Source: Saccharothrix sp. NRRL B-16348 (GTDB taxonomy: Bacteria > Actinomycetota > Actinomycetes > Mycobacteriales > Pseudonocardiaceae). Taken from it: a stretch of 29,356 nt of DNA. Where the stretch lies: positions 1 through 29,356 of the forward strand of contig NZ_LGED01000275.1 in assembly GCF_001280085.1 (NCBI RefSeq), read 5' to 3'. Below the pieces are notes generated by a model, which made no database searches, had not been told where the DNA came from, and saw only the letters and a list, made by a program, of their open reading frames with translations. Positions 14,419-29,356 of the stretch are shown here, in pieces. Positions within the stretch are counted from its first letter, which is position 1. Each line of letters opens with the position of its first letter. Made by a program: the position numbers and the translations under genes.

Positions 14419-14537
14419 CCGCGCCCGCGAACCCGTGCCCGAACGCCGTGCTCTCTGTGCCCCAGAGCCGATCAGACCAACCGAATCGGGATGTCCCCGG
14501 TTTGACAGGCGGAAACGGCCTGACGACGCTGGTGGGC

Positions 14538-14905: not shown

Positions 14906-15835
14906 GGCGGGGAAGTAGTGGCCGTTGTCCAGGTCGGCGAGCAGGCCTGGGTGAGCGGGTTCCCAGCCGAGGGTCCGGCGGGTGATGAGGTTGGACGCCG
15001 GGTAGCTCTGCGTGACGATGTTCGCGAGGAACCCGAAGTACCCCGGCACCATCAGCACGTCCGCGGGAACGCTCACGACGGGCAGGCCCAGCCGGCGGCC
15101 GATGGCCTCGGCGATCTCGCGCAGCGGGATGGCACCGTCCCCGACCGCGTGCCAGTACCTGCCGGCCGGTCCCTTCTCCAGCGCCAAGCGGAACAAGGAG
15201 GCGGCGTCGCGGATGTGCACGGCGTTCCACAGGTTCGCGCCGCCGCCGGGGTAGCCGACGAAGCCCTTCTCCTTCGCGAGCGCGATCAGCTGCACGAAGA
15301 AGCCGGCACGATCGGTCGTGCTGTGCGCGATGTTGGCGATCCGCACGACGGATGACCGCACTCCCCGCTCGGCGAGGCCGACCACGGCGGTTTCCACGAC
15401 GTTGCGAACCCGCAGGGTGCCCTTGTGCTCATCGCCGACGGGAAGGGCCGGGTCCTCCTCGGTGACCGGCCGGCCCAGGTTCCCGGGCGAGCCGATGCTG
15501 CCCGCCGCGACCAGCGGCTTGCCCGTCCCCTCTAGTGCCTCGCCGTACGCGAGGATGATCGGGAGCTCCGCGGCGGCCACGGCGTCGATCCCGCCGGACG
15601 GGAGCAGGTCTTGCCGGTGCGCGACGTGGATGACGCCGTCGGATTCCGCGGCCGCCTCCTTGAGCCCGTCGAGATCCTCGATGTCGCCGCGACGCACTTT
15701 CGCGCCGAGCGCGGACACCGCCGCCGCGGCCGTGTCCGACCGGGCCAGGCCGGTGACCTCGTGCCCGGCGGCGACGAGCTCGGGAATGATGTGCGAACCG
15801 GAATGGCCGGTCCCGCCAGTGACGAAAACGCGCAC
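14900..15835 (-). CDS. NAD(P)-dependent epimerase/dehydratase (extended SDR)
   Basis: A 311-residue extended short-chain dehydrogenase. The N-terminal VRVFVTGGTGHSGSHIIPEL is the Rossmann nucleotide loop (T-G-G-T-G-x-x-G), followed by ARSDTAAAAV and GDIEDLDGLKEA, where the adenine-binding Asp sits. The usual Y-x-x-x-K dyad is not obvious: in its place stands GTLRVRNVVE around residue 140-150, so the chemistry may be atypical or redox-only. GTG 15835 is supported by AGGAG at 8 nt. It follows the F420-type reductase by 37 bp on the same strand; both may be controlled by the divergent LysR regulator. Substrate unknown. Confidence 0.8.
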   Translation of the reverse strand: MRVFVTGGTGHSGSHIIPELVAAGHEVTGLARSDTAAAAVSALGAKVRRGDIEDLDGLKEAAAESDGVIHVAHRQDLLPSGGIDAVAAAELPIILAYGEALEGTGKPLVAAGSIGSPGNLGRPVTEEDPALPVGDEHKGTLRVRNVVETAVVGLAERGVRSSVVRIANIAHSTTDRAGFFVQLIALAKEKGFVGYPGGGANLWNAVHIRDAASLFRLALEKGPAGRYWHAVGDGAIPLREIAEAIGRRLGLPVVSVPADVLMVPGYFGFLANIVTQSYPASNLITRRTLGWEPAHPGLLADLDNGHYFPAD

Positions 15836-15872
15836 GCTGCTGCTCCTGGTGAATGACGTGGTGCGGGTGCGC

Positions 15873-16505
15873 TCAGCGGAGAATGCTGACGCCGAGCGAG
15901 AAGTCGGTGTGCTTGACCGAGTGCGCGACGAGGCCCAATTGCAGCAGGGCGACGTTCTCCAGCGTCCGCGCCATGGGCAACTGCCCGATGTCCAGCGGGC
16001 GCAGTCCCAGGCTCTCCACGAACGCTGACACGCGTGCCTTCGCCCGTGCGTCGTCGCCGGCGATGAACACGTCCAATGGGCGGCCCTCGGCTGTGCCGGC
16101 CGCCAGCACGTGGGAGAACAGGGTGTTGAACGCCTTGACGACCTGCGCGCCGGACGGTGCGGCCTTGGCGATCTCCTGCGCGCCGGAACTGCCGTCGGGG
16201 GTGACAAGGCCCGTGAGGTCAGAGGAAATGGGGTTGGTGAGGTCGACGATGATCTTGCCGCGCAGTGCGTCCCCGTACTCGCCGACCACCGCCGCCGCGC
16301 CGGCGTACGGCACGGCGAGGATGACGATGTCCCCGGCCGGGACGGCGCCGGCCGTCCCGACGGTAGCGCCGCCGAGCGCGGCGGCCACTTCCTCGGCCTT
16401 GGCCCGGTCACGGCCGATGATCTCGACCGCGTTGCCGCCGGCGAGCGCCCGGCCGGCCAGGGCACTGGCCATGTTCCCCAGGCCGATGATGCTGATGCTG
16501 CCCAT
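15873..16505 (-). CDS. NADPH-dependent F420 reductase-like oxidoreductase
   Basis: A 210-residue protein of the F420-dependent NADP reductase family. The N-terminus SISIIGLGNMASALAGRALAGG is the Rossmann loop, and GRDRAKAEEVAAALGG contacts the NADP phosphate. VPAGDIVILAVPYAGAAAVV, IIVDLTNPIS and VVKAFNTLFSHVL are also family-typical, the last carrying the Asn/Thr around the active site. True F420 reductases are a little longer, and many relatives of this size act on other substrates, so F420 use is not certain. ATG 16505 is the only good start, with a weak ribosome site. It leads the operon reductase-epimerase and stands divergent from LysR. Confidence 0.82.
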   Translation of the reverse strand: MGSISIIGLGNMASALAGRALAGGNAVEIIGRDRAKAEEVAAALGGATVGTAGAVPAGDIVILAVPYAGAAAVVGEYGDALRGKIIVDLTNPISSDLTGLVTPDGSSGAQEIAKAAPSGAQVVKAFNTLFSHVLAAGTAEGRPLDVFIAGDDARAKARVSAFVESLGLRPLDIGQLPMARTLENVALLQLGLVAHSVKHTDFSLGVSILR

Positions 16506-16546
16506 TTGCGTGCCTGCTTTCTGGAGCCTGCCATCAAGTCCCGATG

Positions 16547-16569
16547 GTGAATTCCTCCACCGAATTCAC
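16547..16569. promoter_or_regulatory. Perfect inverted repeat upstream of the reductase gene
   Basis: GTGAATTC and GAATTCAC are spaced by 7 bp (16547-16554, 16562-16569). The repeat lies 42 bp upstream of the reductase ATG, where its promoter should be, and is AT-rich compared with the flanks. It could be a second regulator site. Confidence 0.5.
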
Positions 16570-16639
16570 TCCGGCTTCATCGGTCACCTGTTCAGGTTGC
16601 CCCTGGCCTGATCGGCTGTCCAAGACCTCTTTCAGCCGT

Positions 16640-16662
16640 GGTGATACCTTGGAGGCATCACC
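16640..16662. promoter_or_regulatory. LysR-type T-N11-A box
   Basis: GGTGAT and ATCACC are separated by exactly 11 bp. This is the classic LysR-type recognition dyad (T-N11-A inside an inverted repeat). It ends 15 bp before the LysR start codon, fitting autoregulation and control of the divergent reductase/epimerase operon. Confidence 0.75.
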
Positions 16663-16677
16663 AGACCGGGAGGCGCC

Positions 16678-17577
16678 GTGGATCTGGACCTGCGCAAACT
16701 GCGCTACTTCGTCGCCGTGGCCGACCGGTTGCACTTCGGCCGCGCCGCCGACGAGCTGCACATCGCGCAGCCGGCGCTCAGCCGCCAGATCCGCGCGCTG
16801 GAGCAAGACCTCGGCGCCTCGCTGTTCATCAGGAATCGCCACGGCGTGGCGTTGACCGACGCGGGCCGACAACTGCTGGACGACGCCGGTCCGCTGCTCG
16901 CCTCCGCGCACGCCGTCCGACGTCGGGTGTCCGTGGCCGCCCGCGGCAGCCGGCGGCTGGTGGTCGGCTTCCGGACCGGCATCCCGGTCATCCCGGCGGC
17001 GCAGGCGTTCGAGGCCCGGCACCCGGACGTGGTCGTGGACGTGCAGCGGGTGGAGTGGGACGACCAGGCCGCGATGCTGCTCGACGGCCGCGTCGACGTC
17101 GGCTACGTGCGACTGCCGATCGACGAGACGGGCCTGCGCGTGACCCCGCTGTACACCGAGCCGCTCATGGTCGTGCTGCCCGCCGGCCACCGGTTGGCCG
17201 GCAAGGAGGAGGTCACCGAGGCCGACCTGGCCGGTGAGCCGCTGGTGTGGCACGCCGACCCGAGCACGCGGCCCACCAGGCGCCCGCACCCCGACTCCGG
17301 GCTCCGGGTGCGCGGAGTGGAGGAGAAGCTCGAACACGTCGCGGCCGGCCGGGGCATCTCGTTCGTGGGGCGCTCGGAGACCGTGTTCTACTCGCGCCCG
17401 GACATCAGCTACGTCCCCATCCCGGAACTCGCACCCGACCAGGTGGCCCTCGCGGTGGCGGCATCACGCACCTCGCCGCTGGTCGACGACTTCCTCGCCG
17501 CGGCGCAGGCGACGGTCGAGATCACGGCAGAATGCGGGAACCCCGATGCGCATGCGGCTCTTCCGCAGGGACGCTGA
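16678..17577 (+). CDS. LysR-family transcriptional regulator
   Basis: A 299-residue regulator. Residues 1-60 form the winged helix-turn-helix (LRKLRYFVAVADRLHFGRAADEL, then HIAQPALSRQIRALEQDLG), followed by the linker helix and a two-lobed effector domain from about residue 90 (RRLVVGFRTGIPVIPAAQAFEARHP). Length is normal. GTG 16678 follows GGGAGG at 5 nt. A LysR box sits immediately upstream, and the reductase/epimerase operon is divergent, so these are the likely targets. The effector is unknown. The stop lies 2 bp from the stop of the convergent membrane protein gene. Confidence 0.92.
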   Translation: MDLDLRKLRYFVAVADRLHFGRAADELHIAQPALSRQIRALEQDLGASLFIRNRHGVALTDAGRQLLDDAGPLLASAHAVRRRVSVAARGSRRLVVGFRTGIPVIPAAQAFEARHPDVVVDVQRVEWDDQAAMLLDGRVDVGYVRLPIDETGLRVTPLYTEPLMVVLPAGHRLAGKEEVTEADLAGEPLVWHADPSTRPTRRPHPDSGLRVRGVEEKLEHVAAGRGISFVGRSETVFYSRPDISYVPIPELAPDQVALAVAASRTSPLVDDFLAAAQATVEITAECGNPDAHAALPQGR

Positions 17578-17579
17578 CG

Positions 17580-17999
17580 TCAGTGCACGGCCGGGCGGTG
17601 CCCGCGTGCCACGGCCAGGCACAGCGCGGCCAGTGCCGCGATGATCGGCGCCCAGCCGAAGCGTTCCCACGGGCTTGACGAAGCCAGGTTCATCAACAGC
17701 CCGACCGTGAGCAGCACGACCAACACCCACGTGCCGCTCTTGGCGACCCGCGCCGGCACCCACCGCACGCGATAGCCTCCTCGCCGCAGCACCACCGCCG
17801 CGGCCACCAGCCAGAACGCGGTGGCGACCCCACTGGCGACCCGCAGAGCGGGGGGCAACTCGGCCACCTCGCCTCCATATGCCGCTCGGCCCAAGGGGAT
17901 CCCGGCGGCCAGCAGTGCCTGGAACACCGACACCGCCACGAAACCCGTGCCGGCGACGGCAGCGGCCCGTCTCAGCCGGCGGGTGACAGCCACAGTCAT
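17580..17999 (-). CDS. Four-helix membrane protein coupled to PadR
   Basis: A 139-residue membrane protein with four predicted helices: AGTGFVAVSVFQALLAAG, LRVASGVATAFWLVAAAVVL, GTWVLVVLLTVGLLMNLA and APIIAALAALCLAVA. A basic linker (RRGGYRVRWVPARVAK) joins the second and third. The layout resembles small DUF-type actinobacterial membrane proteins, but I cannot name a family. ATG 17999 overlaps the PadR stop as ATGA and has GGGAG upstream, so expression is coupled with PadR. Genes paired with PadR this way are often the regulator's main target. The function is unknown. The gene ends convergent to LysR with the palindrome CTGACGTCAG made by both stops. Confidence 0.7.
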   Translation of the reverse strand: MTVAVTRRLRRAAAVAGTGFVAVSVFQALLAAGIPLGRAAYGGEVAELPPALRVASGVATAFWLVAAAVVLRRGGYRVRWVPARVAKSGTWVLVVLLTVGLLMNLASSSPWERFGWAPIIAALAALCLAVARGHRPAVH

Positions 18000-18565
18000 G
18001 ATGTTCTCCCTGGTCGTGTTCTCGCCCGGTCGTCGTCGAGTTCCGCAAGAGTGGACAGTGCGTCGTGAGCCCATGCCTGTGTGGCACGGGCGGAATGCTC
18101 TCCCGCGGAGACGGTGAGCAGCCAGTAGGCACGGTCCTCGCCGTCCTGGCCCTCGATCTCCGCGCGGATCTCCGCGTACCGCTTCAGCGCGTCCTGCGCT
18201 TCGGTCAACGCCGCCTGGACCAACGTCCGGCACGCGGCGGGACCGAGGTGTCGCCCGAAGTACAGTCGCAGCAACATTCCGTTGCGCGGTGGCGTGGCCT
18301 GAACGGGCTGCGCCAACAACTCCTCCAGGCGTCGTACGCCCGATGGCGTGATCGCGAACGTGGACGCACCGGTCCGGGTGGCATCCTGCTTGCGCACGAA
18401 CCCCTCCCGTTCGAGATTCGCCAACGTGGGGTAGATCTGGCCGTAGCTCTCGCTCCAGAAATGCCCCAACACGTCCCGGATCGCTTCGCGCAACGCGTAG
18501 CCCGTCATCGGCTGGACGCTCAACCCGCCCAGCACCGCGACCTCCGTCTGACTCGCCCTGGCCAT
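17996..18565 (-). CDS. PadR-family transcriptional regulator
   Basis: A 189-residue PadR regulator. The N-terminal winged helix runs EVAVLGGLSVQPMTGYALREAIRDVLGHFW, SESYGQIYPTLANLEREGFVR and TFAITPSGVRRLEELL, the family hallmark being GY-x-L and Y-x-x-L. A C-terminal helical dimer part follows (about residues 95-180). ATG 18565 follows GAGAGGGG at 7 nt. It overlaps the membrane protein gene and lies divergent from the cyclase-like/EAD2 gene. A 26-bp near-perfect palindrome in its promoter is probably its own operator. PadR proteins are usually repressors of stress or efflux genes and may sense phenolics or drugs; the signal here is unknown. Confidence 0.9.
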   Translation of the reverse strand: MARASQTEVAVLGGLSVQPMTGYALREAIRDVLGHFWSESYGQIYPTLANLEREGFVRKQDATRTGASTFAITPSGVRRLEELLAQPVQATPPRNGMLLRLYFGRHLGPAACRTLVQAALTEAQDALKRYAEIRAEIEGQDGEDRAYWLLTVSAGEHSARATQAWAHDALSTLAELDDDRARTRPGRTS

Positions 18566-18574
18566 CCCCACCCC

Positions 18575-18617
18575 TCTCTGACAGATATATCTATCAGAGA
18601 CATGCCCGCGCCGGCAA
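18575..18617 (-). promoter_or_regulatory. PadR promoter with 26-bp palindromic operator
   Basis: On the minus strand TTGCCG (18612-18617) and TAGATA (18588-18593) lie 18 bp apart. The palindrome at 18575-18600 has arms starting TCTCTGA and a centre AGATATATCT, with only one mismatched pair, and covers the -10. This is the layout of a repressor operator; autoregulation by PadR is likely. Confidence 0.75.
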
Positions 18618-18719
18618 GCACGTGCTTCGACCGCACGGAACGCGCCGGGATTGGTCTGTTCGAGTGCCGCCGCTGCCCCCGCGCCCTCGACTGGACTACA
18701 ACAAGCGTGGGGAGGTCGC

Positions 18720-20165
18720 ATGGGGTCGGATTCGGGCGCACTGCACCGGTCGTTCATCGCCGTGGACGTGGAGGGCTTTGGCGACCCGGCGCGCACCACG
18801 GCGCAACGGCGCGGCGCCCGCAGCGGCATGTACCAGGTGTTGATGCGCGCGTTCGCCGACGTCGGCCTACCGTGGGACGACAAGTCGGTGGAGGACGCGG
18901 GCGACAGCCTCATCGTGCTGCTGCCCCCGGACGTCGCCAAGGCGGTCCTCGCCGACCGGCTGCCCGGGCGTCTGGCGGCTGCACTGCGTGATCACAACCA
19001 GGGTCACTCGGTCGGCGCGCGGTTGCGCCTGCGGATGGCGTTGCACGCGGGTGAGGTGCACTACGACGAGCGCGGCAAGACGAGCGCCGACCTGATCCTC
19101 GCCTCTCGGATCCTGGACGCGGCGGAGGCCAAGCGGGCGCTGCGCGACTCCACGGCCCCCCTCGTGGTGATCGTCTCCGACCCGTTCTACCAGTCCGTGA
19201 TCCGCGATCGATCCGCCACCCGCCCGGACGCCTACCGACCGGTGGACGTGCGGGTCAAGGAGATCAGCGACCAGGCGTGGGTCCGCCTGGTGGACGCCGA
19301 CACGCCCCGGCCCGCCACCGGCACGCGTGCGCCTACCTCGCGTGAGCTGAACGCGATCGTCGACGCCCTGCTGCGCACACCCGGCTTCGACACGCACGAG
19401 AAGCGTGACCTGGTGTTGCACGAACTTCCGTTCGCGGCCTCCATCGCCCGCCACAGCTCGGACCGCGCGGACACCTTCAGCATCGTCCGGATGATCGCGC
19501 GCTACCCCGGCGGCCTCGAAGCCCTGCGCGAGTCGATCAACTTCCACGCCGCGGGCAACACCGCCGTGGCCGAACTCGACACGCTGATAGCAGATCTGGC
19601 CGGTGGCGGGGATTCCGGCTCGCGTGCCTCGAACGACGAGCACGAACTGGTGGTCTTCACCTCCGGCGAGGACGGCGTCCCGGTCAGGGATGCCGTGGTC
19701 GACATCCTGGAGATCGCCGGGTACGGCGTCACCGCCGAGCAGAGCCCGGAACGCGGATCGTGGTTCCAACGGCTCACCGTCAAGCAGAGAAGTCCCGAGG
19801 CCGCGGCGAACCTGGCCACCGCCCTGACGGCGACCGTGACCAACGGGGTGGTCGCCGAGACGGTCGGCACGGCCGTGCAGGGAGGGGACATCACCGTCCA
19901 GGTCCACCCGCCCGACGCCACCCACGACGAGCGGATGACGAACGCGATCGCGCGGTTGCTGGAAGCCAGCCGCGGGCACGACGAGGTCGTCGTCTACATG
20001 GGCTCGATCCTGTTGATCAAGATCGACTCGTCGATCAGGGTGTGGGAACCGACGGAGGACGAACACGACCTCATCGCCGCCAACCCCCACCTGCTGCAGG
20101 CACCTCGCGATCTGGTCGCCAAGTTGGTCGGCGACAAGCTGCCGGAGAACGCTGCCGAGCGTTAG
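18720..20165 (+). CDS. Cyclase-like domain plus effector-associated domain (EAD2) protein
   Basis: A 481-residue cytosolic protein of the kind found in actinobacterial conflict systems. Residues 10-190 are a nucleotide-cyclase-like domain: FIAVDVEGFGD with metal-type Asp16, and VEDAGDSLIVLLPP with Asp62, then LRMALHAGEVHYD. In the N/R motif (normally V-N-x-A-x-R) the Asn is replaced: DLILASRILD keeps Arg130 but has Ile126, so catalysis is doubtful. Residues about 205-290 match EAD2, a small helical adaptor: LNAIVDALLRTPGF, KRDLVLHELPFAASI, MIARYPGGLEALRESI. The remainder (about 310-470) is unknown. EADs are thought to recruit an effector by homotypic contact. ATG 18720 follows GGGGAGG. It is divergent from PadR and convergent with the broken ABC operon. 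Confidence 0.75.
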   Translation: MGSDSGALHRSFIAVDVEGFGDPARTTAQRRGARSGMYQVLMRAFADVGLPWDDKSVEDAGDSLIVLLPPDVAKAVLADRLPGRLAAALRDHNQGHSVGARLRLRMALHAGEVHYDERGKTSADLILASRILDAAEAKRALRDSTAPLVVIVSDPFYQSVIRDRSATRPDAYRPVDVRVKEISDQAWVRLVDADTPRPATGTRAPTSRELNAIVDALLRTPGFDTHEKRDLVLHELPFAASIARHSSDRADTFSIVRMIARYPGGLEALRESINFHAAGNTAVAELDTLIADLAGGGDSGSRASNDEHELVVFTSGEDGVPVRDAVVDILEIAGYGVTAEQSPERGSWFQRLTVKQRSPEAAANLATALTATVTNGVVAETVGTAVQGGDITVQVHPPDATHDERMTNAIARLLEASRGHDEVVVYMGSILLIKIDSSIRVWEPTEDEHDLIAANPHLLQAPRDLVAKLVGDKLPENAAER

Positions 20166-20173
20166 CTCTTCGG

Positions 20174-20858
20174 TCAGTCGGAGCGGCCGATTCCCCGGAA
20201 CTCGATCTCGACGCCGTCCAGCGCGTCGAGAGGACCGGACTCGGGCCACGACCCGGTCGGCGAGCACGACCGCCTCCTCGACGGAGTGCGTGACGAACAC
20301 GACGGTCAGCGGTTGCTCCCGCCAGATCCGTTGCAGCTCACCGGACAGCTCCGTCCGGGTCAGCGCGTCGAGCGCCGAGAACGGCTCGTCCATGAGCAGC
20401 ACTGCCGGGCCCTCGATGATCGCGCGGCACAAGGCCACCCGCTGCTGCATCCCGCCGGACAGCTCGTGCGGCAGCCGTGTGGCGAACCCCTGAAGTCCGA
20501 CCAGCTCCAGCAGCTCGTGCGCGCGGGCGACGTGCCGCCGGCGGTCCAGGCCGAGCACCTCGACGGGAAGCAGGACGTTGCCCAGCACCGAACGCCAGGG
20601 CAGCAACGCCGGGCGCTGGAACATGACGGAGATGTCGCGCCGGGGCCCGGTCACCGGTTCGCCGGCGACGACGACCCGCCCTCCGGTCGGCGCGAGCAGC
20701 CCGGCGACGATCCGCAACAGCGTCGACTTGCCGCAGCCGGACCGCCCGATCACCGCCACGACCTCGTGCTCGCCCACCTCGAAGTCGATGCCGTCGAGGG
20801 CGGGCACGTGCCCGCGCTTCCCCTCGAAGACCCGGGACACCTGCTCCACGGCGATCAT
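20174..20858 (-). pseudogene. ABC importer ATPase, 3' end damaged
   Basis: Residues 1-204 are a normal nitrate/taurine/aliphatic-sulfonate-type ATPase: Walker A GRSGCGKST (38-46), Q-loop FQRPALLPW, signature LSGGMQQR (133-140), Walker B VLLMDEPFSALD (153-164), and the switch His in VTHSVEEA. Directly after LADRVV (about 20249) the usual C-terminus is lost. The frame then continues into Arg-rich sequence and would run on, antisense through the EAD2 gene, to a stop at 18867. A different frame in this stretch looks coding (GPLDALDGVEIEFRGIGRSD) and stops at 20174. The best reading is a deletion or frameshift near 20174-20250. No permease gene is present. ATG 20858 follows the binding-protein stop by 7 bp. 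Confidence 0.7.
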
Positions 20859-20865
20859 GACGGCA

Positions 20866-21726
20866 TCAGGGCTTCGGCACCAGCTCGAACGAGACGAGAT
20901 CAGCCGCCCGCAACGACCCGGCGGGGATCGCTTGCGCCTCGCCGAGCAAGTCGATGATCGTCGTGACCCGGCTCTCGTCGACCGCGCCGAGCGGGCCCGG
21001 GAACCCCGCCGGCTCCGAGTACTCCGGCATCAGCCGCAGCTCGGCGGCGGCCACCTCGGGGTTCTGCGTCGGCTGGTACTTGGTGAGGATCCGGCCGGCC
21101 TCGTCAGGGTGGTCGAGGGAGTACCGCAGCCCTTTGAGCAACGCGCCGCTGAACCGCCGCACCAACCCGGGGTCGTCGCGCGCCAACTCCGGTGAGGTGA
21201 CCAGCATGTTGCCGTAGAGGTCGGGCAGGAGTTCCCCGTACGGCAGGACGACCGCCTTGCGCCCCTTCGCCGCCGCCTCGATCAGCGGCTTGCCGACGAC
21301 GAACTGGCCGATCCCGTCGACCTGCCCGGACAGCAGGAGCTGCGGCAGCCCCGGCGGCGCCGAGGGCACGAACTCGACCGTGCCGGGGTCGATCCCGGCG
21401 GCCTTGGCGTACAACGGGAACATCAACCGGATCGTCGAGCCGGGCGGATCACCGATCTTCCTGCCGACGAGGTCCGCGGGCGTGGTGATGCCGCCGCCTT
21501 CGAGCCCGATGATGGCCGCGACGGTGCGCTGGTGGATCGCGGCCACGGCGGTGACCGGCAACTTCTCCTTCGCGACCGTGATCATCGTGCCGGTGAGGTC
21601 GGCCACCCCGAACGACGTGAGGTAGGTGACCTCGGCCGCGTTGCCCGCGGTTCTCGTCCCACTCCCACAGGCGACGAGCGCCGCCAACACGATGACCACG
21701 AGGAGAACGGAACGACAGGGCCGCAT
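20866..21726 (-). CDS. ABC transporter substrate-binding lipoprotein, probably with internal deletion
   Basis: A 286-residue lipoprotein (signal peptide ending LAALVAC at the lipobox) of the nitrate/sulfonate/thiamine-precursor binding family (NMT1/SsuA-like). Recognised parts are VTYLTSFGVA, AAIHQRTVAAI, GGGITTPADLVGRKIG, FPLYAKAAGID, GQVDGIGQFVVGKPLIEAA and LYGNMLVTSPELA. As I remember the family, some 55-60 residues lie between VAKEK and the AVAAIHQRT block; here the two are joined almost directly (ITVAKEKLPVTAVAAIHQ). This suggests an in-frame deletion that removes part of the ligand lobe, but the comparison is from memory. ATG 21726 follows AAGGAG. It leads the broken importer operon and is divergent from the NACHT gene. 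Confidence 0.75.
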   Translation of the reverse strand: MRPCRSVLLVVIVLAALVACGSGTRTAGNAAEVTYLTSFGVADLTGTMITVAKEKLPVTAVAAIHQRTVAAIIGLEGGGITTPADLVGRKIGDPPGSTIRLMFPLYAKAAGIDPGTVEFVPSAPPGLPQLLLSGQVDGIGQFVVGKPLIEAAAKGRKAVVLPYGELLPDLYGNMLVTSPELARDDPGLVRRFSGALLKGLRYSLDHPDEAGRILTKYQPTQNPEVAAAELRLMPEYSEPAGFPGPLGAVDESRVTTIIDLLGEAQAIPAGSLRAADLVSFELVPKP

Positions 21727-21945
21727 CGTGGGCTCCTTCCCCGGTGTCCCCACCGAACAGCACCGGCGAAGACGGCGTCGAGAACCGCGGCACAACCCGG
21801 GACCGACCCCAAGGGATCCGGGCGAACGAACCGATCACGGTGACGTCACGTGTCGGAGCGGACGACGAAATCTGCGGCCGGCGGAGCACCGATCGCCGGC
21901 ACCCTGTACGACGATCACAACGCCCTCGTCACCTCCGGGACGTCC

Positions 21946-24900
21946 ATGGAGATCCGGCTGCTCGGCCCCGTCGAACTGCACGGCCCGTCCGGCGAGGTCG
22001 ATCTCGGACCGCCGCAGCGCCGACACGTGCTCGCCGCGCTCGCGGTCCGGCCCGGCCGGGTCGTGCCGACCACGACGCTGATCCGCCAGGTGTGGGGCGA
22101 GGACCCGCCTGACTCGGCACGCAAGGCGCTCCACGCCCACGTCAGCAGGCTGCGCAAGGCGCTGCAAACAGTCGGCGGCTCGCTGGTCAGCCGCAACGGC
22201 GGCTACGTCCTGCTGGTCGAGCCCCACCAGGTCGACTGGTTCCGGTACCAAGCGCTCGTCGCCACGGGCCGGGACGCCGCGCGCGACGGCGACGATCCGC
22301 GTGCCGCCGAGGACTTCCAGCGTGCCGCGCGGCTGTGGCGCGGCCGACCGCTGGCCGACCTGGAGGGCCCGTGGGTCACGGGCTACCGCGAGGTGATGAC
22401 GGAACGCAGGCTGTCGGCCGTCGAGGCGGCACTGGAAGTAGGGATGCGCCAGGGTCGCCACGCCGAGTTGGCGAGCGAGGCCGCGGACTTGGCGCGGCAC
22501 CACCTGGGCCGTCAGCACCTCGTCGCCCTGGCCGCCCAATGCCTCCACTGGTGCGGCAGGCAGGCGGAGAGCAGCGAGCTGTGCCACCGGGCGATCGTGT
22601 CGCTGCGACGGAACGGGGTGGAGCCGAATCGCCGGCTGCTCGAGCTGCACACGCGCATCCTGCGCGACGACCCCGGGCTGGCCGGGCCGTTCCCGACGCC
22701 CGCACCGGCGACCGGTGATCCCGGGGCGCGCCGCGAACTCGCCCGCGAGATGCGCAGGATCTGGCTGGAGCGCCGGGACGAGGACGCCCGCGTGACGCTG
22801 CGGGTGCGCGAGCAGCCAGGGGCGGTCTGGCCGGAGTTCGCCGACCACACCGCCCCCGACCTCGGCGAGGCGGGGCCCGTGCTGGACCGACCGCTGTCCG
22901 AACTCGTGCTCCGCCGGTACAACCGCAGGCTGCTGGTGTTGGGGGACAAGGGCGCCGGTAAGACCACCAGCCTGGTGGACCTGGCGGCGGCCCTGCTGGC
23001 GCGGTCCGACGACCCGGACGTGCCCGTGCCCGTCGTCCTGCTGCTGTCGCGGTGGCGTGGCGGCGACTTCGCCGACTGGGTCGTGAGGGAGGTTCGCGAC
23101 CAGTACCGGCTGCCCGCCGACCGGGTGCGGCGGCTGCTCGTGGACGAGGAGGCGCTCGTCCTGCTGGACGGGCTCGACGAGGTGCCCACCGAGCTGCGCG
23201 GCGCGTGCGTGCGGGGCATCAACGCGTTCCGCACCGCGTTCGGCGCCGGGATCGTCGTGACCTCACGCACCGCGGAGTACCGGGACCTGGACGTGCGGCT
23301 CGCGCTCGCGGGCGCGGTGGCCATCCAACCGCTCACCGCCGAGCAGATCGACCGGCGGCTCGCCGACGGCGGCGCCGCGTTGGCGGGGCTGCGGGACGCG
23401 GTGCGCCGTGACCCCGAGCTGGTGAAGCACCTGTCCGCACCGCACATGCTGGACGTCGTGTGCGTCGCGTACGAAGGAGGCGGCGAGGTGTCACCGACGA
23501 TCGGTGGCTCCTACGACGACTACCTCCGCGTCCTGCTGCAGCGGTCACGCTCGCCGCTGCCCGGAGCCCGCCGCACGCCGCCGTTCGACCTCGCCGCCAC
23601 CCGTCACTTCCTCACCTGGCTGGCCAGGCTGATGACAGCACGCGGCGAGACCGTGTGGTTCCCCGACCACTTGACGCCCGCGTCGCTGCCGGGGCCGCGC
23701 CCGCGCTGGTCCCTGCCGGTGACGCTGTGGTCCGGACCGGCCGAGCGGATCGGCCTGCGACGCCTCGCGACCGCCGGGACGTACGGGGTCGTGGCGGCGC
23801 TGTTGTCCGCGGCGGTCTACGGGGTGCAGCTCGGGCTGGGCCGTTCGGCGGCCCGGGACACCCCGCTGGACGCGTCGCCGCTGTTCGCCGTCCCGCTCGC
23901 GGTGGTCGTGTTCGCGGCGGTCACGTGGCTGTTCGTGCGCGGCGGGTTGCCGCGGTGGTCGAGGGTTCCGGTGTACGCGGTGACGCTCATGGTCGCCGGA
24001 GGGCTGCACAAAGGGCTGTACACCGGGCGGCAGTCCGGCACGGCTGCGGGGTGGCACGCGGGCATCGTCGGCGCACTGGTCTACGGGGCGACCATCGCCG
24101 CTTCGGTCGCGATGGCGCTCGGCGTCGTGGCCGTGGTGCGCCGCCTGGACCGGGACGACCGGTGGGCCCTGTCCCCCGGTCGGATCGCGCGGTGCACCGA
24201 CACCGCCGCGGTGTGCGCCCTGGCCGTGGGCGTGAGCCACGCGCCGGCCCGGTTCGCCGCCGCACCGCACGACGCCGCGTACGCCCTGACCGCGGGCTTC
24301 GGCTACGGCGTGATCATGGGCCTGGGTGGTGGCGTGCTGCTCGGGCTGGGGTTCATGCTCGTGGACCTCGACGTCGCGCGGCCCGCCGCGCGCTGGTCGT
24401 TGTCGTGGCGCGGGTTCGCGACGGCGTGCGCGACCGCCGCCGTGTTCGGGGTGCTGCACTGGCTGCTGCTCGTGCGGGCCGTCGGGATGGCGCTGGGTCC
24501 GGACAAGGGTCCGGTGTTCGCGTTCGTCGTCGCGATGACGTTCTGCCTGGCCTTCGGCCTCGGGCACAGCCTGCGGCCCGAGCTCAACCTGCCCGTCCCG
24601 GCCCCCGCGCGGGCGCTGACCGCGTCCCTGCGCGCGGCCGTCGGGCCGGTGGTGGGCGCGGTGCTCGTGGCCCTGCTCGCGACGGCGCCGGCCCGGACCG
24701 CGGTCGTCGAGTACGTGCAGATCGCGCTCGTGGTGCCCGCCGTGCTGGCCGCACTGCTCACGTTCTGGTTCACCGGCGGCGGGGTGTGGCTCGCGCACCA
24801 CGTGGCCCGGACGATCGCGCGGCACGCCCGCCTGCTCCCGCGAGACCTCCTCGGGTTCCTCGAGCACGCCGACGAGCGGATGCTGCTGCACCGGCACGAC

Positions 24901-24981
24901 GGCGGCTACCGCTTCCGCCACCCCGAGATCCAGCGGCACGTCGCCGAGGACTCCCTGACCACGTCACCCGTACCGCGCTGA
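21946..24981 (+). CDS. BTAD (SARP-type)-NACHT NTPase with C-terminal membrane domain
   Basis: About 1011 residues in four parts. Residues 1-95 are an OmpR-like winged helix as in SARP activators (MEIRLLGPVELHG, RRHVLAALAVRPG, HAHVSRLRKAL). Residues 100-245 are the helical BTAD domain. Residues about 315-600 are a NACHT NTPase: Walker A GDKGAGKTT at 333-341, Walker B LVLLDGLDEVP at 404-414 and sensor-like VVTSRT near 440. Residues about 605-950 hold some ten membrane helices, followed by a wing-like tail (RHDGGYRFRHPEIQRHV). The start is uncertain: ATG 21946 fits the SARP opening exactly, while GTG 21850 lies upstream. NACHT proteins are STAND switches. A DNA-binding front on a membrane-bound switch could mean membrane-tethered transcription control. 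No ligand or partner is known. Confidence 0.85.
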   Translation: MEIRLLGPVELHGPSGEVDLGPPQRRHVLAALAVRPGRVVPTTTLIRQVWGEDPPDSARKALHAHVSRLRKALQTVGGSLVSRNGGYVLLVEPHQVDWFRYQALVATGRDAARDGDDPRAAEDFQRAARLWRGRPLADLEGPWVTGYREVMTERRLSAVEAALEVGMRQGRHAELASEAADLARHHLGRQHLVALAAQCLHWCGRQAESSELCHRAIVSLRRNGVEPNRRLLELHTRILRDDPGLAGPFPTPAPATGDPGARRELAREMRRIWLERRDEDARVTLRVREQPGAVWPEFADHTAPDLGEAGPVLDRPLSELVLRRYNRRLLVLGDKGAGKTTSLVDLAAALLARSDDPDVPVPVVLLLSRWRGGDFADWVVREVRDQYRLPADRVRRLLVDEEALVLLDGLDEVPTELRGACVRGINAFRTAFGAGIVVTSRTAEYRDLDVRLALAGAVAIQPLTAEQIDRRLADGGAALAGLRDAVRRDPELVKHLSAPHMLDVVCVAYEGGGEVSPTIGGSYDDYLRVLLQRSRSPLPGARRTPPFDLAATRHFLTWLARLMTARGETVWFPDHLTPASLPGPRPRWSLPVTLWSGPAERIGLRRLATAGTYGVVAALLSAAVYGVQLGLGRSAARDTPLDASPLFAVPLAVVVFAAVTWLFVRGGLPRWSRVPVYAVTLMVAGGLHKGLYTGRQSGTAAGWHAGIVGALVYGATIAASVAMALGVVAVVRRLDRDDRWALSPGRIARCTDTAAVCALAVGVSHAPARFAAAPHDAAYALTAGFGYGVIMGLGGGVLLGLGFMLVDLDVARPAARWSLSWRGFATACATAAVFGVLHWLLLVRAVGMALGPDKGPVFAFVVAMTFCLAFGLGHSLRPELNLPVPAPARALTASLRAAVGPVVGAVLVALLATAPARTAVVEYVQIALVVPAVLAALLTFWFTGGGVWLAHHVARTIARHARLLPRDLLGFLEHADERMLLHRHDGGYRFRHPEIQRHVAEDSLTTSPVPR

Positions 24982-25067
24982 CCTGCGGAGCAAGGATTCG
25001 ACAACCATCGCGTGCACTCCCGGCTGCGAGCCTGGCCATCACGACGGACCGGAAGGAGCCCCCGGAG

Positions 25068-25967
25068 ATGGCCATTCGAAGATCCCTCGCGCGGTTGTCC
25101 GCATTGGTGCTGCTGAGCGGCGGACTCGTCGCCCTCGGCACCGCACCGGCGCACGCCGCCGCCTGTTTCGGCGCCGGTACGACGATCGTCGGCACGCCGG
25201 GCAACGACGTGCTGCTCGGCGGCAGCGGAAACGACGTCATCGACGCGGGCGGCGGCAACGACCTCGTCATCGGCAACGGCGGCAACGACAAGCTGTGCGG
25301 CGGCGACGGCGACGACACCATCGAGGGCTACAGCGGCGACGACATGATCTCCGGAGGCCATGGCGCGGACCGCCTCGACGGCGGACGCGGCGGGTGCTGC
25401 GACTCCTCGTTGGACACCGGCACCGACACCGTCAACGGCGACGACGGTCCCGACGTGATCTGGTCCGCCGACTTCGGGCGCCTGATCGCCAACGGCGGCT
25501 TGGGCGACGACGAGATCTACGGCCTCGGCGGCAACGATCAGATCGGAGGCGGCGGCGGCAACGACACCATCGGCGGGCACGGCGGCGACGACCTGCTCGA
25601 CGGAGGGCTCGGCGGCTGCTGCGACCCGGTCCAGGACACCGGCGCGGACGTGATCTACGGCGGTGACGGCGGCGACGTCATCTGGTCGGCAGACCTCGGT
25701 CGGCTGCTGGCCGACGGCGAGGCGGGCAACGACACCCTGCACGGCCTGGGCGGCAACGACGTCCTGTGGGCGGGCGAAGGATTGGACTACCTGTTCGGCA
25801 ACGGTGGCGACGACGTGCTCGACGTCCGCGACGGCTACACCAATTCCGATCTCGCCAACGCCGGGGACGGCGTCGACCAGTGCCGGATCGACGTCTGGGC
25901 CTACAACCCGGCACAGCACGACACCCACTACTACTGCGAAACGATCGTGACCAACCAGGTCACGTGA
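25068..25967 (+). CDS. Secreted RTX-like (hemolysin-type) calcium-binding repeat protein
   Basis: A 299-residue exported protein. Residues 1-31 are a Sec signal peptide (ending AHA). Most of the rest is RTX nonapeptide repeats, G-G-x-G-x-D/N-D-x-hydrophobic, such as GGSGNDVI, GGNGND-like and GGGGGNDTI, which bind Ca2+ as a parallel beta-roll. Two copies of a 74-residue module carry an unusual GGCCD (residues 108-112 and 182-186) and later DVIWSAD (129-135 and 203-209). This module inserts Cys-Cys pairs into the RTX roll. No lipase or protease domain is present. ATG 25068 follows AAGGAG at 9 nt. It lies 86 bp behind the NACHT gene, same strand. A Sec signal is unusual for Gram-negative RTX toxins but usual in actinobacteria. 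Confidence 0.85.
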   Translation: MAIRRSLARLSALVLLSGGLVALGTAPAHAAACFGAGTTIVGTPGNDVLLGGSGNDVIDAGGGNDLVIGNGGNDKLCGGDGDDTIEGYSGDDMISGGHGADRLDGGRGGCCDSSLDTGTDTVNGDDGPDVIWSADFGRLIANGGLGDDEIYGLGGNDQIGGGGGNDTIGGHGGDDLLDGGLGGCCDPVQDTGADVIYGGDGGDVIWSADLGRLLADGEAGNDTLHGLGGNDVLWAGEGLDYLFGNGGDDVLDVRDGYTNSDLANAGDGVDQCRIDVWAYNPAQHDTHYYCETIVTNQVT

Positions 25968-25980
25968 CAGGGACGCGATT

Positions 25981-26005
25981 CACTCGACCGGGCTCACTCG
26001 ACCGG
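25981..26005 (+). repeat. Two perfect 11-bp direct repeats before the Pro-rich gene
   Basis: CACTCGACCGG occurs twice, 14 bp apart (25981-25991 and 25995-26005), and the second copy runs into the ribosome site GGAGG of the next gene. It may be a regulator or RNA-binding site, or slipped-strand duplication. Confidence 0.6.
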
Positions 26006-26014
26006 AGGATCCTC

Positions 26015-26890
26015 ATGTCGTCCGCTGCGCTCTGCTCCCCCTCCCTCCCCCGCGACCTGCCGCGGAAGATCACCACGCACGCAGCCGCGCTCCTCCTGCT
26101 CGCGGTGTGCGTGGATGCCGTCAACGAACTGCACCACGCCGACCCGGTCGGGTCGACGGTCGTGACCAGCGCGCCGGCCGTCGCGCGGATGCCCGACGCG
26201 CACAACGTCAAGAGCGCTGCCGTCCCCGACCGTGTCATGGCGCCCGACCGCACAGCGCTTCCACGGACCGCGTCGACCATCGATGCGAGCGGGGCGGCCG
26301 TCATCGACCGCATCCCCACGCTCGCACAGGTCGAGCACACGGCACCGGCACAGTCGGGCACCGCCGTGGGGCCGTCGGGCGACGCCCCGAACTCCGTCCA
26401 GGTGACTACCGCTCCCGACATCCCGGACGGCACGCCCAACCCCGCACCGTCCGGGAGCGGGAGGGTCGCGCTTCCGGCCCTGGCGGCAGGCGGCACCTCC
26501 GACGAGCAGGCGAAGCAGGACCAGGCGGAAAGCGCCCCGATCCGCTCGGCCCCCGCCGAAACCCCGGCGCCGGCCCGGCCGCCGACGGTTCCCGTGGGGC
26601 CCGCGGCAGTCCCCGTGCCGCCCGTGGTCACAGCTCCGGTGATCGCAACTCCGGTGGTCATGGCCCCGGCGACCCCATCACCGGCTGTCGACCGGCCAAG
26701 CGTCCCCGTCTCGGCGCGGCCGATCGTGGCAGCGATGCCCGTTCCCGTCCCGTCGACCATGGGCGCCGTGACCGTCACCGGCAGCATGAGCGAACCCGTG
26801 CCCGCGGTGCCGGTGCACTCGCCCACGCCCGCGATGCCGCTCCCCGGCCCGGGCGGGATGGTCCAGCACGCACCGCAGTCGATGATCTGA
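26015..26890 (+). CDS. Pro/Ala-rich membrane-anchored protein
   Basis: A 291-residue low-complexity protein. One hydrophobic helix near residues 22-34 (HAAALLLLAVCVDAV) is a signal anchor or signal peptide. What follows is Pro/Ala/Val/Thr-rich with no folded domain visible: the last 110 residues repeat short Pro-Val-x motifs (PPTVPVG, PPVVTAPVIATPVVMAPAT, VPVSARP, PVPVPS). Such stretches span or interact with the cell wall and can be extended rods or mucin-like stalks. It has no obvious enzyme or sorting motif. ATG 26015 has GGAGG 7 nt upstream. It ends 4 bp before the next gene, so the two are co-expressed. By context it may be a cell-surface linker for the RTX or repeat protein. Confidence 0.65.
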   Translation: MSSAALCSPSLPRDLPRKITTHAAALLLLAVCVDAVNELHHADPVGSTVVTSAPAVARMPDAHNVKSAAVPDRVMAPDRTALPRTASTIDASGAAVIDRIPTLAQVEHTAPAQSGTAVGPSGDAPNSVQVTTAPDIPDGTPNPAPSGSGRVALPALAAGGTSDEQAKQDQAESAPIRSAPAETPAPARPPTVPVGPAAVPVPPVVTAPVIATPVVMAPATPSPAVDRPSVPVSARPIVAAMPVPVPSTMGAVTVTGSMSEPVPAVPVHSPTPAMPLPGPGGMVQHAPQSMI

Positions 26891-26894
26891 CCCG

Positions 26895-28139
26895 ATGCCG
26901 AACGCCACGAGAACCGACAACCGCATCGTGGGCACGGTGCACGAGGCGGTGCAGGCCGGGTCCATCAACGAGGTGCACTTCCACCGCCCGTCGAAGCACT
27001 TGCGGGTGTTCCTCGCGATCGTCGGGACCTGCATGCTGACCGCCGCGTCGGGCACGCCGCCCGCCGAGACCTCCGACCACCGCCCGGTCTCCCCCACCAC
27101 GGCCAAGGCGTGCCTGGTGCGCACCGACCCGTCCACCAAGTCCGGCTACGTGTGGGCGAACCGGCCGCACGAGGACGCGTACCGCCCGCAGGGCGAGTAC
27201 CAGTGCAACTCCTCGGGCGGGGTCAACAGCGTGGTCCGCGAGGGCGTCGGCCGGTACACCGTGGACTTCCCCGGCCTCAGCGTGGACGGCGGCACGGTCG
27301 ACCTCACCGCGGCGGACACCGCCGACCGGCTGTGCTCGGTACGCGACTGGGGACCGTCGCACACCGACCAGCGAGTCCGGGTCACGTGCGTGGACCGCGA
27401 CGGAACACCGGCCGACGCCGCGTTCACGCTCGCCTTCCTGTTCACGATGGGCCGCAACGGCGTCAGCGCCTACGTACGCGCCGACCAACCCACCACCGAC
27501 ACCCAAGTCCCGGACCCCAACCACCAGCACAACTCCACGGGAGGGATCAACTCGATCGACCGCGAGGCCACCGGGTCGCACGTCGTCTTCCTCCCCGGCA
27601 TCGACCAGTCGCCGGCAGAGGGCGACTCGGGCGGCATGGCCAAGGTGACAGCGCTCGGCGAAACGCCGAACACCTGTTCCCCACACGGATGGCGACCATG
27701 GCACAACCCCGAGACGGACAAGGACTTCTTGATCGTCCGCGTCACCTGCACGACACCACGCGGCGACCCGGTGGACGCGCCGTTCGCCCTGTCGTTCACC
27801 GCCGACCTGGGCTCCACCCCCACCGCACGCGTCCCCGGAGCGTACTTATGGGCCGACAAAGAGGACGAGGCCTCGTACACGCCCACCAAGGAGTACCAGT
27901 ACAACTCGACACACACGCTGAACACAGTGACCCGATCCGCGACCGGCACCTACACGGCGCACCTGCCAGGCCTGACCCGCAAAGGCGGCCACGCCCAGGT
28001 CTCCGCGTACCGGACGGACGCCACGTGCGGCGTGACCGGCTGGTACCCAGTGGAGCAGGAACAACGAGTCGACGTGGTGTGCCGCGCACCGACCGGCGAC
28101 CCGGTCGACGCACAGTTCACCCTGGTCTACCTCCAATAA
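26895..28139 (+). CDS. VHFH-tagged membrane protein with three extracellular repeats
   Basis: A 414-residue protein of unknown function. Residues 9-30 hold a short motif, IVGTVHEAVQAGSINEVHFH, like the N-terminal V-x-G-x-V-V-Q-A-G...V-H-x-H tag found before many actinobacterial STAND and conflict proteins. Residues about 36-53 form one membrane helix. The rest is three related modules starting at about residues 84, 192 and 316, each with AYVWA/AYLWA-like start, a QYNS-type Asn-Ser segment, TV-x-x-P-G-L and a pair of Cys, ending DPVDAxFTLxxL. The tag would be cytoplasmic and the modules outside. ATG 26895 follows the previous stop by 4 bp. Last gene of the run from the NACHT protein. A terminator was not seen. 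Confidence 0.7.
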   Translation: MPNATRTDNRIVGTVHEAVQAGSINEVHFHRPSKHLRVFLAIVGTCMLTAASGTPPAETSDHRPVSPTTAKACLVRTDPSTKSGYVWANRPHEDAYRPQGEYQCNSSGGVNSVVREGVGRYTVDFPGLSVDGGTVDLTAADTADRLCSVRDWGPSHTDQRVRVTCVDRDGTPADAAFTLAFLFTMGRNGVSAYVRADQPTTDTQVPDPNHQHNSTGGINSIDREATGSHVVFLPGIDQSPAEGDSGGMAKVTALGETPNTCSPHGWRPWHNPETDKDFLIVRVTCTTPRGDPVDAPFALSFTADLGSTPTARVPGAYLWADKEDEASYTPTKEYQYNSTHTLNTVTRSATGTYTAHLPGLTRKGGHAQVSAYRTDATCGVTGWYPVEQEQRVDVVCRAPTGDPVDAQFTLVYLQ

Positions 28140-28156
28140 CCAATGGGCTCGGACAG

Positions 28157-28513
28157 TCACCTCCGGCGTGCCGCCGCCCCCGGACGCGAACGTCCTGCCG
28201 CCGAAGACTCAGGCTCGTCGTCGAGTCGCAACGACTTCAGGAACGCGACGGCCGCCCGGTGAGCCGGCCCTTCCGGCGGCACGACTTCCAGCAGTGCCAC
28301 CAGTGCGAGCAGGCGGTCCTTGTCGAGCGCTCCGAAGTAGCGCGTCAGGTGCGCGTTCCACCTGCTGTCGAGGTGGAGCAGCAGACCACCGCCGCCCCGC
28401 GCGTCATCGACCAGGACCGGTCGCCCGTCGTGCTGCTCGACCTGCCAGGCGGGCAACGGCGCCACCAGCCGCCGGAACCGGTCGACCATCCGCTCGTACT
28501 CACGCCGATCCAC
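28157..28513 (-). CDS. Small protein of unknown function
   Basis: A 118-residue soluble protein with a charged, helical N-terminal half (REYERMVDRFRRLVAPLPAW), a Gly-rich centre (DDARGGGGLLLHLDSRW), a DKDRLLALVALLEVVPP helix and a disordered Arg/Ala/Gly-rich tail. I chose GTG 28513 because AGGGG precedes it; GTG 28516 and GTG 28546 remain possible. No domain is recognised. The gene is convergent with the VHFH-tagged gene, 17 bp apart. A 9-bp inverted repeat lies just upstream. Confidence 0.5.
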   Translation of the reverse strand: MDRREYERMVDRFRRLVAPLPAWQVEQHDGRPVLVDDARGGGGLLLHLDSRWNAHLTRYFGALDKDRLLALVALLEVVPPEGPAHRAAVAFLKSLRLDDEPESSAAGRSRPGAAARRR

Positions 28514-28523
28514 CACTACCCCT

Positions 28524-28572
28524 GACCGTCGGAACCTCGTGCCCACGCCCTTCAGAGCGATGGCCGACGGTC
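28524..28572. promoter_or_regulatory. 9-bp inverted repeat upstream of the small gene
   Basis: GACCGTCGG (28524-28532) and CCGACGGTC (28564-28572) are perfect inverted copies 31 bp apart. They sit 11-59 bp upstream of the chosen start and may be an operator; a long-loop hairpin is also possible. Confidence 0.35.
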
Positions 28573-28664
28573 GGGGAAGAACCGCACCGTGATCGTCGCA
28601 CAGCCGTTCGAATCGCTGTCAAGTGGAATCACCCAGGCAGGGCGCGTGCGGCACGGAACGGTCG

Positions 28665-29186
28665 TCAGTCGTTGCCGCCGAACGTGAGTTGGCGGCGGTG
28701 GAAGTCGAAGTGCCGGACCGGGAAGCGGTAGATGTCGGCGAGGGTCATGAAGTCCTGGAAGAACGGGTCCCAGCGGGTCGGGTAGTGCATGCCGCGGGCC
28801 AGGTCGGTGTCGGTTTCGCGGTCGAGGCGGCGGTGCAGGGCGGCGATGGTGCGGTCGCAGAGCGCGGCCAGTTGCCGGCGGCCGAGGGTGCTGCCGCCGA
28901 GCCAGGAGCCTGCGAAGTTCACCGCGTCGAACGGTGCGGTGGCCGCGTTGAGCAGGCGGGCGAAGGTTCTGCTCATGCCGGTGGGCAGCCGGTCGACCAG
29001 GCGGGCCAAGGTCAGCAGGGCGCGGATGATCAGGAACCCGAGGAGCATGTGGAACAGCAGTTGGCGGTTGTCCCACCGGGTGCCGTCGGACTTGCGGCGC
29101 AGGTCGGCGGCAGTGGCCTGGTCCAGGAGTGCGTGGAACGTGGCGCGTGCCCGTTCCAGGTCGTCGTGAACCGCCTGCTTGTCCAC
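28665..29186 (-). CDS. DinB-family protein
   Basis: A 173-residue helical protein matching the DinB/YfiT-like four-helix family. It starts VHDDLERARATFHALLDQATAADLRRKSDGTRWDNRQLLFHMLLG, the typical helix 1-2 stretch with Trp and a His that can bind metal, and ends with PVRHFDFHRRQL, where more His could complete the triad. The family includes metal-dependent thiol-transferases and stress-induced proteins; this member's substrate is unknown. GTG 29186 is the only good start; the ribosome site is weak (TGGGACC). It follows the acetyltransferase stop by 26 bp on the same strand, so the two may be co-transcribed. Confidence 0.78.
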   Translation of the reverse strand: MDKQAVHDDLERARATFHALLDQATAADLRRKSDGTRWDNRQLLFHMLLGFLIIRALLTLARLVDRLPTGMSRTFARLLNAATAPFDAVNFAGSWLGGSTLGRRQLAALCDRTIAALHRRLDRETDTDLARGMHYPTRWDPFFQDFMTLADIYRFPVRHFDFHRRQLTFGGND

Positions 29187-29212
29187 GGTCCCAGTGTGCG
29201 CCTGCTCGGCGT

Positions 29213-29356
29213 TCAGCAGGTGGCGCAGTCCGGTGTGGTGAGGACGGAGGCGGAGTTGGCGCGGCGTTCGAGCATGACGGTGTCGCGCCAGGTGCCGTGG
29301 TGTTGGGCGATGCGTTCGCGGACGCCGACGGTGCGGTAGCCGGCGGAGTGGTGCAG
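29213..29356 (-). CDS. GNAT acetyltransferase, C-terminal fragment
   Basis: The last 47 residues of an acetyl-CoA-dependent N-acetyltransferase; the rest is beyond the right edge. HSAGYRTVGVRERIAQHHGTWRDTVMLERR is close to the end of phosphinothricin-acetyltransferase-like GNATs, where GFRxVG..E and GxWRDxVxLERRS are common. The tail adds TTPDCATC, a Cys-pair end. The substrate cannot be told from this part. Confidence 0.75.
   Translation of the reverse strand: MHHSAGYRTVGVRERIAQHHGTWRDTVMLERRANSASVLTTPDCATC

Follow-up and report, generated by a model that had tools for sequence, protein, structure and literature searches.

A SARP-headed NACHT protein with a predicted multi-helix membrane domain nested in its winged-helix gate, and related proteins with interchangeable outputs

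The window analysed here (29,356 nucleotides, contig NZ_LGED01000275.1 of Saccharothrix sp. NRRL B-16348) contains an intact open frame (21946..24981, + strand, 1011 aa) whose predicted product joins a SARP front to a NACHT NTPase, a membrane domain and the tail of a winged-helix domain (WHD). This overall anatomy is well supported by domain matches and structure modelling, and the reading that we favour, with moderate confidence, is that of a membrane-embedded transcription activator of the STAND class in which the membrane domain gates the WHD. Antibiotic genes are the typical targets of SARP activation and, to our knowledge, the signals that reach the large SARPs are poorly known. Even for AfsR, the part of the published account considered here leaves open whether an inducer binds the sensor domain (PMC10936776). 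A SARP with a membrane domain inside its switch would therefore provide a concrete and testable input site. The more interesting aspect of the protein is its chassis, i.e. the NACHT gate with a built-in membrane domain and swappable outputs, rather than the SARP front.

A membrane domain inside the NACHT switch

A pre-NACHT segment and the nucleotide-binding domain (residues 260–470, 22723..23355; all features of the gene lie on the + strand) were identified by Pfam (NACHT, residues 327–469, 1.3e-7, above the family cut-off) and by superposition on NLRs. The Walker A motif GDKGAGKTT (residues 333–341, 22942..22968) and the Walker B motif in VLLDGLDEV (residues 405–413, 23158..23184) agree with the NACHT module named in the original prediction, which had been made from the sequence alone. 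The Walker A glycines and lysine are kept in 9/9 SARP-headed aligned rows, as is Walker B (LLDG.DE). The switch may be driven by ATP. The helical domain HD1 and the first part of the WHD follow at residues 471–600 (23356..23745), as seen in the model and the NLR superpositions, the edges being our own reading. A P-loop NACHT with both Walker motifs, succeeded by HD1 and WHD, is what defines a NACHT-clade STAND protein, and the present protein has this arrangement. The C-terminal leucine-rich repeat (LRR) that defines NLRs was not found among the Pfam matches of the whole protein.

The original prediction also described a wing-like tail. It is real and, judging from the model, is the second half of the NACHT WHD (residues 961–1001, 24826..24948). 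The model superposes on NLRC4, NLRP3 and NOD2 across the WHD including this tail, with superpositions ending at residues 1004–1011; the tail holds residues that are invariant in the 10 proteins compared, and the protein ends 10 residues past the predicted end of the WHD. With the tail as second WHD half, the predicted membrane block comes to be nested inside the WHD.

The membrane block spans residues 604–960 (23755..24825), where AlphaFold2 modelled ten long helices. Hydropathy gave nine peaks of at least 1.35 within residues 614–942, the core of the tenth helix being weak (1.08 at residues 674–692), and charged residues are sparse at 591–960 (D 10, E 3, K 2). With the N terminus inside, Lys and Arg account for 22/129 of the residues predicted inside vs 5/59 outside, and the eight other aligned proteins show the same tendency, which ranges from clear (P0067, 25/133 inside vs 3/59 outside) to weak (P0068, 18/131 vs 7/62). 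As the inside/outside assignment was taken from the model, this bias shows consistency and does not prove the topology independently. Being even in number, the helices leave both termini in the cytosol, as the nesting in the WHD requires, and it is strongly predicted that the domain anchors the protein in the cytoplasmic membrane in this orientation. The earlier count of about ten helices agrees with hydropathy, model and charge bias, and the membrane-tethered regulator that it implied is well supported by prediction.

The domain had no Pfam match, and the structural superpositions (in which it was not folded alone) contained no row aligning the membrane helices as a separate domain. Internally, it is duplicated: unit A (residues 690–770, 24013..24255) and unit B (residues 771–850, 24256..24495) matched in hhalign with a profile probability of 97 (E 1.4e-11; 4e-11 in the repeat run), against a maximum of 4.2 for 60 column shuffles of unit B and 6.8 for the reversed unit. 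When 66 window pairs were scanned, the top six all fell in the unit A/B register range. The seventh-ranked pair (residues 600–679 vs 800–879, 89) may represent a further repeat copy; one other pair, from the first comparison, reached 95 with windows that overlap each other.

The order of domains is kept in nine fused homologues (P0002–P0005, P0066–P0068, P0089 and the genome locus L122). P0002, from a named Actinosynnema, is fused and matches at 76% over the whole protein, and the weakest, P0089, has 28% identity, a BTAD without Trans_reg_C by Pfam and a divergent tail. The conserved order rules out the candidate explanation of an assembly or gene-prediction artefact, for which we found no supporting point; given the open frame and the fused homologues we consider its probability negligible. 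The fusion in one gene, as originally proposed, holds in that these nine homologues keep the parts together, although no search was aimed at split orthologues.

A whole-protein search of the own genome gave 52 places, of which 47 matched the SARP front only, four the NACHT region and one was the gene itself, with no second copy matching the entire protein. Since such front matches say nothing about the chassis, residues 241–1011 were used as the later query. Full-length matches were limited to a single genome in each set: one of 390 genomes of the same family (the own genome; the other match covers query positions 17–343 only), one of 396 in the phylum sample and one of 394 in the class sample (again the own genome in both), and one of 341 in the family of Acrocarpospora G1139 (Streptosporangiaceae). 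Scanning genome contigs for a pattern taken from this one sequence gave 93 stretches, none of them a relative. Single-sequence searches miss diverged chassis, for which the profile A4 is more sensitive; it matched in 15/15 same-genus genomes searched (2–15 matches each, own genome included, some to the NACHT part only). The own genome had 11 such matches, eight of which reach position 633 or beyond of 644.

A widespread chassis with interchangeable attachments

Using residues 240–1011 as query we retrieved 64 proteins, and 962 by profile search, the best 120 of these being listed. A scan of the alignment by Walker motifs gave mixed NACHT loci; 41 of 80 were examined and the tail motif was present in 24 of these 41. 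Both Walker motifs together with the tail motif were present in 96 of 221 proteins (180 database proteins plus the open reading frames of the 41/80 loci), a figure that includes about 30 near-identical proteins of ~607 aa and one probable chance match, P0157.

Pfam assigned a variety of domains to the ends of these proteins. BTAD fronts were found in the present protein, P0089, L122 and two Anaerolineae loci (L020, L024), XRE helix-turn-helix (HTH) fronts in P0006, L166 and the own-genome L153 and L154, a plain winged helix-turn-helix (wHTH) in P0088 and a wHTH plus kinase in P0086. Others carried kinase (L016, L029, L045), TIR (P0069, L026), AAA_35 (L030) or CHAT domains (L019, L023, L025, L033, and C-terminally in P0078). 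A further attachment on the C-terminal side is a DinB domain after the tail in a Chloroflexales chassis protein (L041:2259-5636, +). Judged by record titles, Cyanobacteria, Chloroflexi, one Myxococcota and one Chlorobaculum are among the sources of the loci from the Walker-motif scan. The chassis is widespread (Actinobacteria, Chloroflexi, Cyanobacteria), with SARP, XRE, wHTH, Ser/Thr kinase, TIR and CHAT as interchangeable parts.

A tree of 65 cores, from which fronts and membrane block had been excluded, was supported by the Shimodaira-Hasegawa-like approximate likelihood ratio test (SH-aLRT) only, and 27 of its 62 inner branches are open. Front type changed 23 times on it for nine groups (shuffled mean 32.9). 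The SARP front accounts for four changes, at least three of which are forced by starred branches. A single clade of 11 SARP types was rejected by the approximately unbiased test (p-AU 3e-86), whereas a single clade of the eight actinobacterial SARP types was not (p-AU 0.83). SARP fronts have been joined to the chassis more than once. A placement of the XRE-headed P0006 inside the SARP clade was dropped, the arrangement with the eight actinobacterial SARP types together being 25.8 log units better.

Among the ten other chassis copies of the own genome, two have XRE fronts, and five (L155, L156, L158, L159, L162) start with two extra hydrophobic peaks and no known output domain. The latter would fit a different view of the membrane domain, as a mere anchor or as the output itself (pore- or transporter-like), in which the input is cytosolic, e.g. 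a NACHT-binding protein, and the SARP reports or feeds back. Against this, other members of the chassis already bear a complete output domain (TIR, kinase or CHAT), and a membrane block inside the WHD gate is in a place suited to input; we consider this view rather unlikely.

The TIR and CHAT outputs also bear on the conflict or stress switch suggested in the original prediction, namely a receptor whose transcriptional output would start a protective programme against phage or competitors. According to the excerpts considered, NACHT proteins defend against phage (PMC12169576) and so does Tmn, a KAP NTPase that has membrane helices (PMC11846954), and the SARP-NACHT-membrane gene is patchily distributed. 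Patchiness, however, also fits ordinary accessory genes, and PADLOC-DB contained no significant match to the protein (best E 0.018, to mad8, over 30 residues around the P-loop). We regard the suggestion as possible but less likely than not; it is compatible with a STAND activator and differs only in the trigger.

In our judgement the evidence is evenly balanced as to whether these proteins form a large family of membrane-embedded NLR-like receptors, with an internally duplicated polytopic domain inside the WHD gate and interchangeable outputs, linking in the present case the membrane to a promoter. No description of such a family was found in the open-access literature searched, and a prior description elsewhere is possible. 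If true, a single membrane-bearing STAND gate serving six or more kinds of output would offer an economical route from membrane events to transcription, signalling or cell death, and animal NLRs would gain an instructive relative.

The SARP front

The front has the order that defines SARPs, an OmpR-type wHTH (residues 1–92, 21946..22221; Pfam Trans_reg_C, residues 23–87, 9.4e-11) followed by BTAD (residues 96–240, 22231..22665; Pfam, residues 96–239, 3e-24). BTAD gave sequence matches to AfsR (1e-30) and EmbR (1e-19) and is supported by its predicted fold as well, so both modules named in the original prediction are borne out. ATG 21946 was chosen as start over the upstream GTG 21850 on account of the homologues P0002, P0003 and P0005, which share it (MEIRLLGPV or MEICLLGPV). 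AfsR is the closest solved structure for the front. Beyond the front the protein departs from large SARPs, since Pfam shows NACHT and neither NB-ARC nor TPR; the match to the NCBIfam AfsR model is confined to the front and reaches 159 bits, the cut-off being 1430. The genome is rich in SARPs, with 47 front matches besides the gene itself in 10.9 Mb (G000).

We compared eight close proteins with other SARPs (49/61 controls alignable) at the positions of AfsR contact residues. W74 (8/8 close proteins vs 47/49 other SARPs), R94 (8/8 vs 49/49), P79 (7/8 vs 44/49) and R92 (6/8 vs 40/49) are kept, R87, T88, S80, Q81, Q48 and S46 mostly differ in both sets, and the polymerase contact R59 occurs in 2/8 vs 7/49. 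On these alignments, DNA binding by the front is likely, the sequence bound probably differs from the afs box, and contact with the polymerase is less sure.

Proposed mode of action

In AfsR, as far as described in the portion considered, NOD and TPR inhibit the SARP and ATP binding relieves the inhibition (PMC10936776), and CadC clusters on DNA while integrated in the membrane, by diffusion and capture (PMC6320335). The analysis itself shows sequence, predicted fold, distribution and synteny; by applying both mechanisms to the predicted anatomy, we infer membrane sensing, ATP control, action from the membrane and possible targets. At rest, by analogy with NLR structures and AfsR, the WHD would pack on ADP-loaded NACHT and the SARP front would be held inactive. 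A ligand, or a disturbance of membrane or envelope, might then be felt by the membrane domain and passed straight to the WHD. Nucleotide exchange would follow, and ATP-bound NACHT would release or cluster the SARP heads. A SARP pair, by analogy with AfsR and CadC, could bind promoter direct repeats and recruit RNA polymerase while still anchored; its targets might conceivably include the genes for exported proteins in its own 6.4-kb block (see below).

The original prediction posed a dilemma: such a regulator would either have to reach DNA while still in the membrane or have to be released by cleavage. The first horn is no paradox, given that CadC, in the part of the study considered, binds DNA while membrane-integrated and reaches it without cleavage (PMC6320335). 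For the second, proteolysis at the linker (residues 241–259, 22666..22722) would free the front as a soluble activator. The linker is partly disordered in the AlphaFold2 model (predicted local distance difference test score <50 at residues 241–244 and 248–256) and poorly kept (16–58% identity to P0001), two points in favour of cleavage. The CadC precedent argues against it, none of the gene calls scanned in the 6.4-kb block was noted as a protease (not every small frame was scanned), and we consider cleavage quite improbable.

Several points weigh against the membrane-embedded activator itself. The role of the membrane domain as sensor rests on its position and not on a known ligand. AfsR contact S91 is kept in only 4/8 close proteins vs 46/49 other SARPs, K95 is basic in 6/8 vs 48/49, and of the polymerase contacts D71 is retained in 3/8 vs 22/49 and E76 in 3/8 vs 33/48. 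Upstream of the gene there are no tandem SARP-type repeats, the sole 7-nt pair lying 58 apart. ATP changed neither oligomerisation nor DNA binding of AfsR in the excerpt considered (PMC10936776), so that clustering by ATP is not a given. As the whole region varies between same-genus genomes, shared membership of the block is weak evidence of a functional unit, and the orthologue locus L122 (G1329) has no neighbour in common with the window.

A variable neighbourhood

The gene lies in a stretch (21787..28193) that is absent as a unit from the same-genus genome G065 (blastn vs L163). The flanks, window 21610–21786 and 28194–29356, map there 4 bases apart at ~93% identity, from which it follows that these 6.4 kb are missing as one block, which may reflect either gain or loss. 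Comparison of the two ends gave only 7-nt matches. Positions 13076–20245 (~7.2 kb) correspond to ~1.3 kb in G065 and there is a ~1.1 kb difference at 9879–10961, i.e. the region around the gene is generally variable. Over window 9306–21786, several blocks of 1–7 kb are present or absent in L163 around a conserved backbone at 87–95% identity. This variable block, like the WHD nesting and the interchangeable fronts, was missed in the original prediction, whose four domain calls are all right and whose interpretation is partly supported.

Three genes follow on the + strand, encoding an exported-looking RTX calcium-binding repeat protein (25068..25967; Pfam HemolysinCabind, N-terminal hydrophobic stretch), a Pro-rich protein whose N-terminal part bears a hydrophobic helix (26015..26890), and c414 (26895..28139), which by our reading has similar segments along its length and no significant Pfam family. 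Its N-terminal motif GTVHEAVQAGSINEVHFH is followed by a short hydrophobic stretch and, by eye, three ~100-residue repeats; GDVHVH-like motifs resembling it precede NACHT in the own-genome L157 and L161. Close c414 homologues occur in 3/386 family genomes (own, G073 and G071). In G073 the homologue (59%) has a similarly organised Pro-rich gene before it and is itself divergent from a gene for an XRE-NACHT-membrane protein. Between the two Pro-rich proteins the alignment is weak (E 0.035), hence their kinship rests on layout and N-terminal helix, and the G073 chassis is distant (33% identity across 133 aligned NACHT columns). G071 has a partial copy (63%) with no chassis gene within the 19.5 kb examined, nor was one present in the DNA examined around the distant homologues L167–L169 and L171. 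By our own estimate chance adjacency of c414 and chassis is <1% per locus (6–11 chassis matches per 10 Mb), for an association noticed after looking.

On the left, the divergent neighbour is an NMT1-type binding-protein gene (20866..21795, − strand; Pfam), kept in G065 and mostly outside the block. An ABC-transporter ATPase adjoins it (18867–20858, − strand), its frame running across an opposite-strand gene so that its end is uncertain; no permease was seen nearby in the frames scanned. The opposite-strand gene (18651–20165, + strand) lies ~1.8 kb away from the SARP gene, in a further stretch that G065 lacks; its 504-aa product, a conflict-system adaptor, carries Effector-associated domain 2 (Pfam EAD2, 2.9e-16). 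Farther away, a frame at 115–1629 (+ strand) has a Peptidase C70 / C39-like domain (Pfam 5e-13, 5e-8) and overlaps an opposite-strand FMN-reductase frame (150–794), which makes the gene choice ambiguous. The neighbours at L122 include a protein with a signal-peptide-like start and a divergent one (L122:12466-15558, +) that combines NACHT/ATPase_2 and a bacterial Ig-like domain with two hydrophobic segments, another membrane STAND layout.

Comparison with known systems

AfsR and the large SARPs have the order SARP, NB-ARC/NOD, TPR; here NACHT replaces NB-ARC and a predicted membrane domain replaces TPR. The classes given in the part of a SARP review considered include none with NACHT or membrane parts (PMC10972967), the layout was not seen in the portions considered of two surveys of conflict NTPases (PMC7159879, PMC8195603), and the open-access literature contained no paper joining SARP, BTAD and NACHT, the papers listed for BTAD and NACHT being unrelated by title. 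Compared with NLRC4, NLRP3 and NOD2, the protein has no LRR that we could find, a membrane domain nested in the WHD and a transcription-activator front.

XssQ, an HTH-STAND activator of Synechocystis, likewise bears an N-terminal DNA-binding domain on a STAND protein, and its target binding has been shown by electrophoretic mobility shift assay (PMC8205485). The present protein differs in having a SARP rather than an HTH, and the passages on XssQ mention no membrane domain; this comparison is by description, not by sequence.

In KAP NTPases the membrane insert falls between the two Walker motifs. As in these proteins, including Tmn by a partial account (PMC11846954), membrane helices are built into a P-loop NTPase protein. 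By title, the KAP insert is within the NTPase domain, whereas here it is in the WHD, after Walker B (Walker A at residues 333–341, Walker B at 405–413, membrane block at 604–960), and the KAP family is not among the Pfam matches at E up to 1.

CadC has a periplasmic sensor, a single membrane helix and no NTPase switch, in contrast to the ten predicted helices and short predicted outside loops found here. What the protein shares with CadC and ToxR-like receptors, as described in the part of the study considered (PMC6320335), is a cytoplasmic OmpR-type wHTH joined, in the predicted topology, to a membrane segment.

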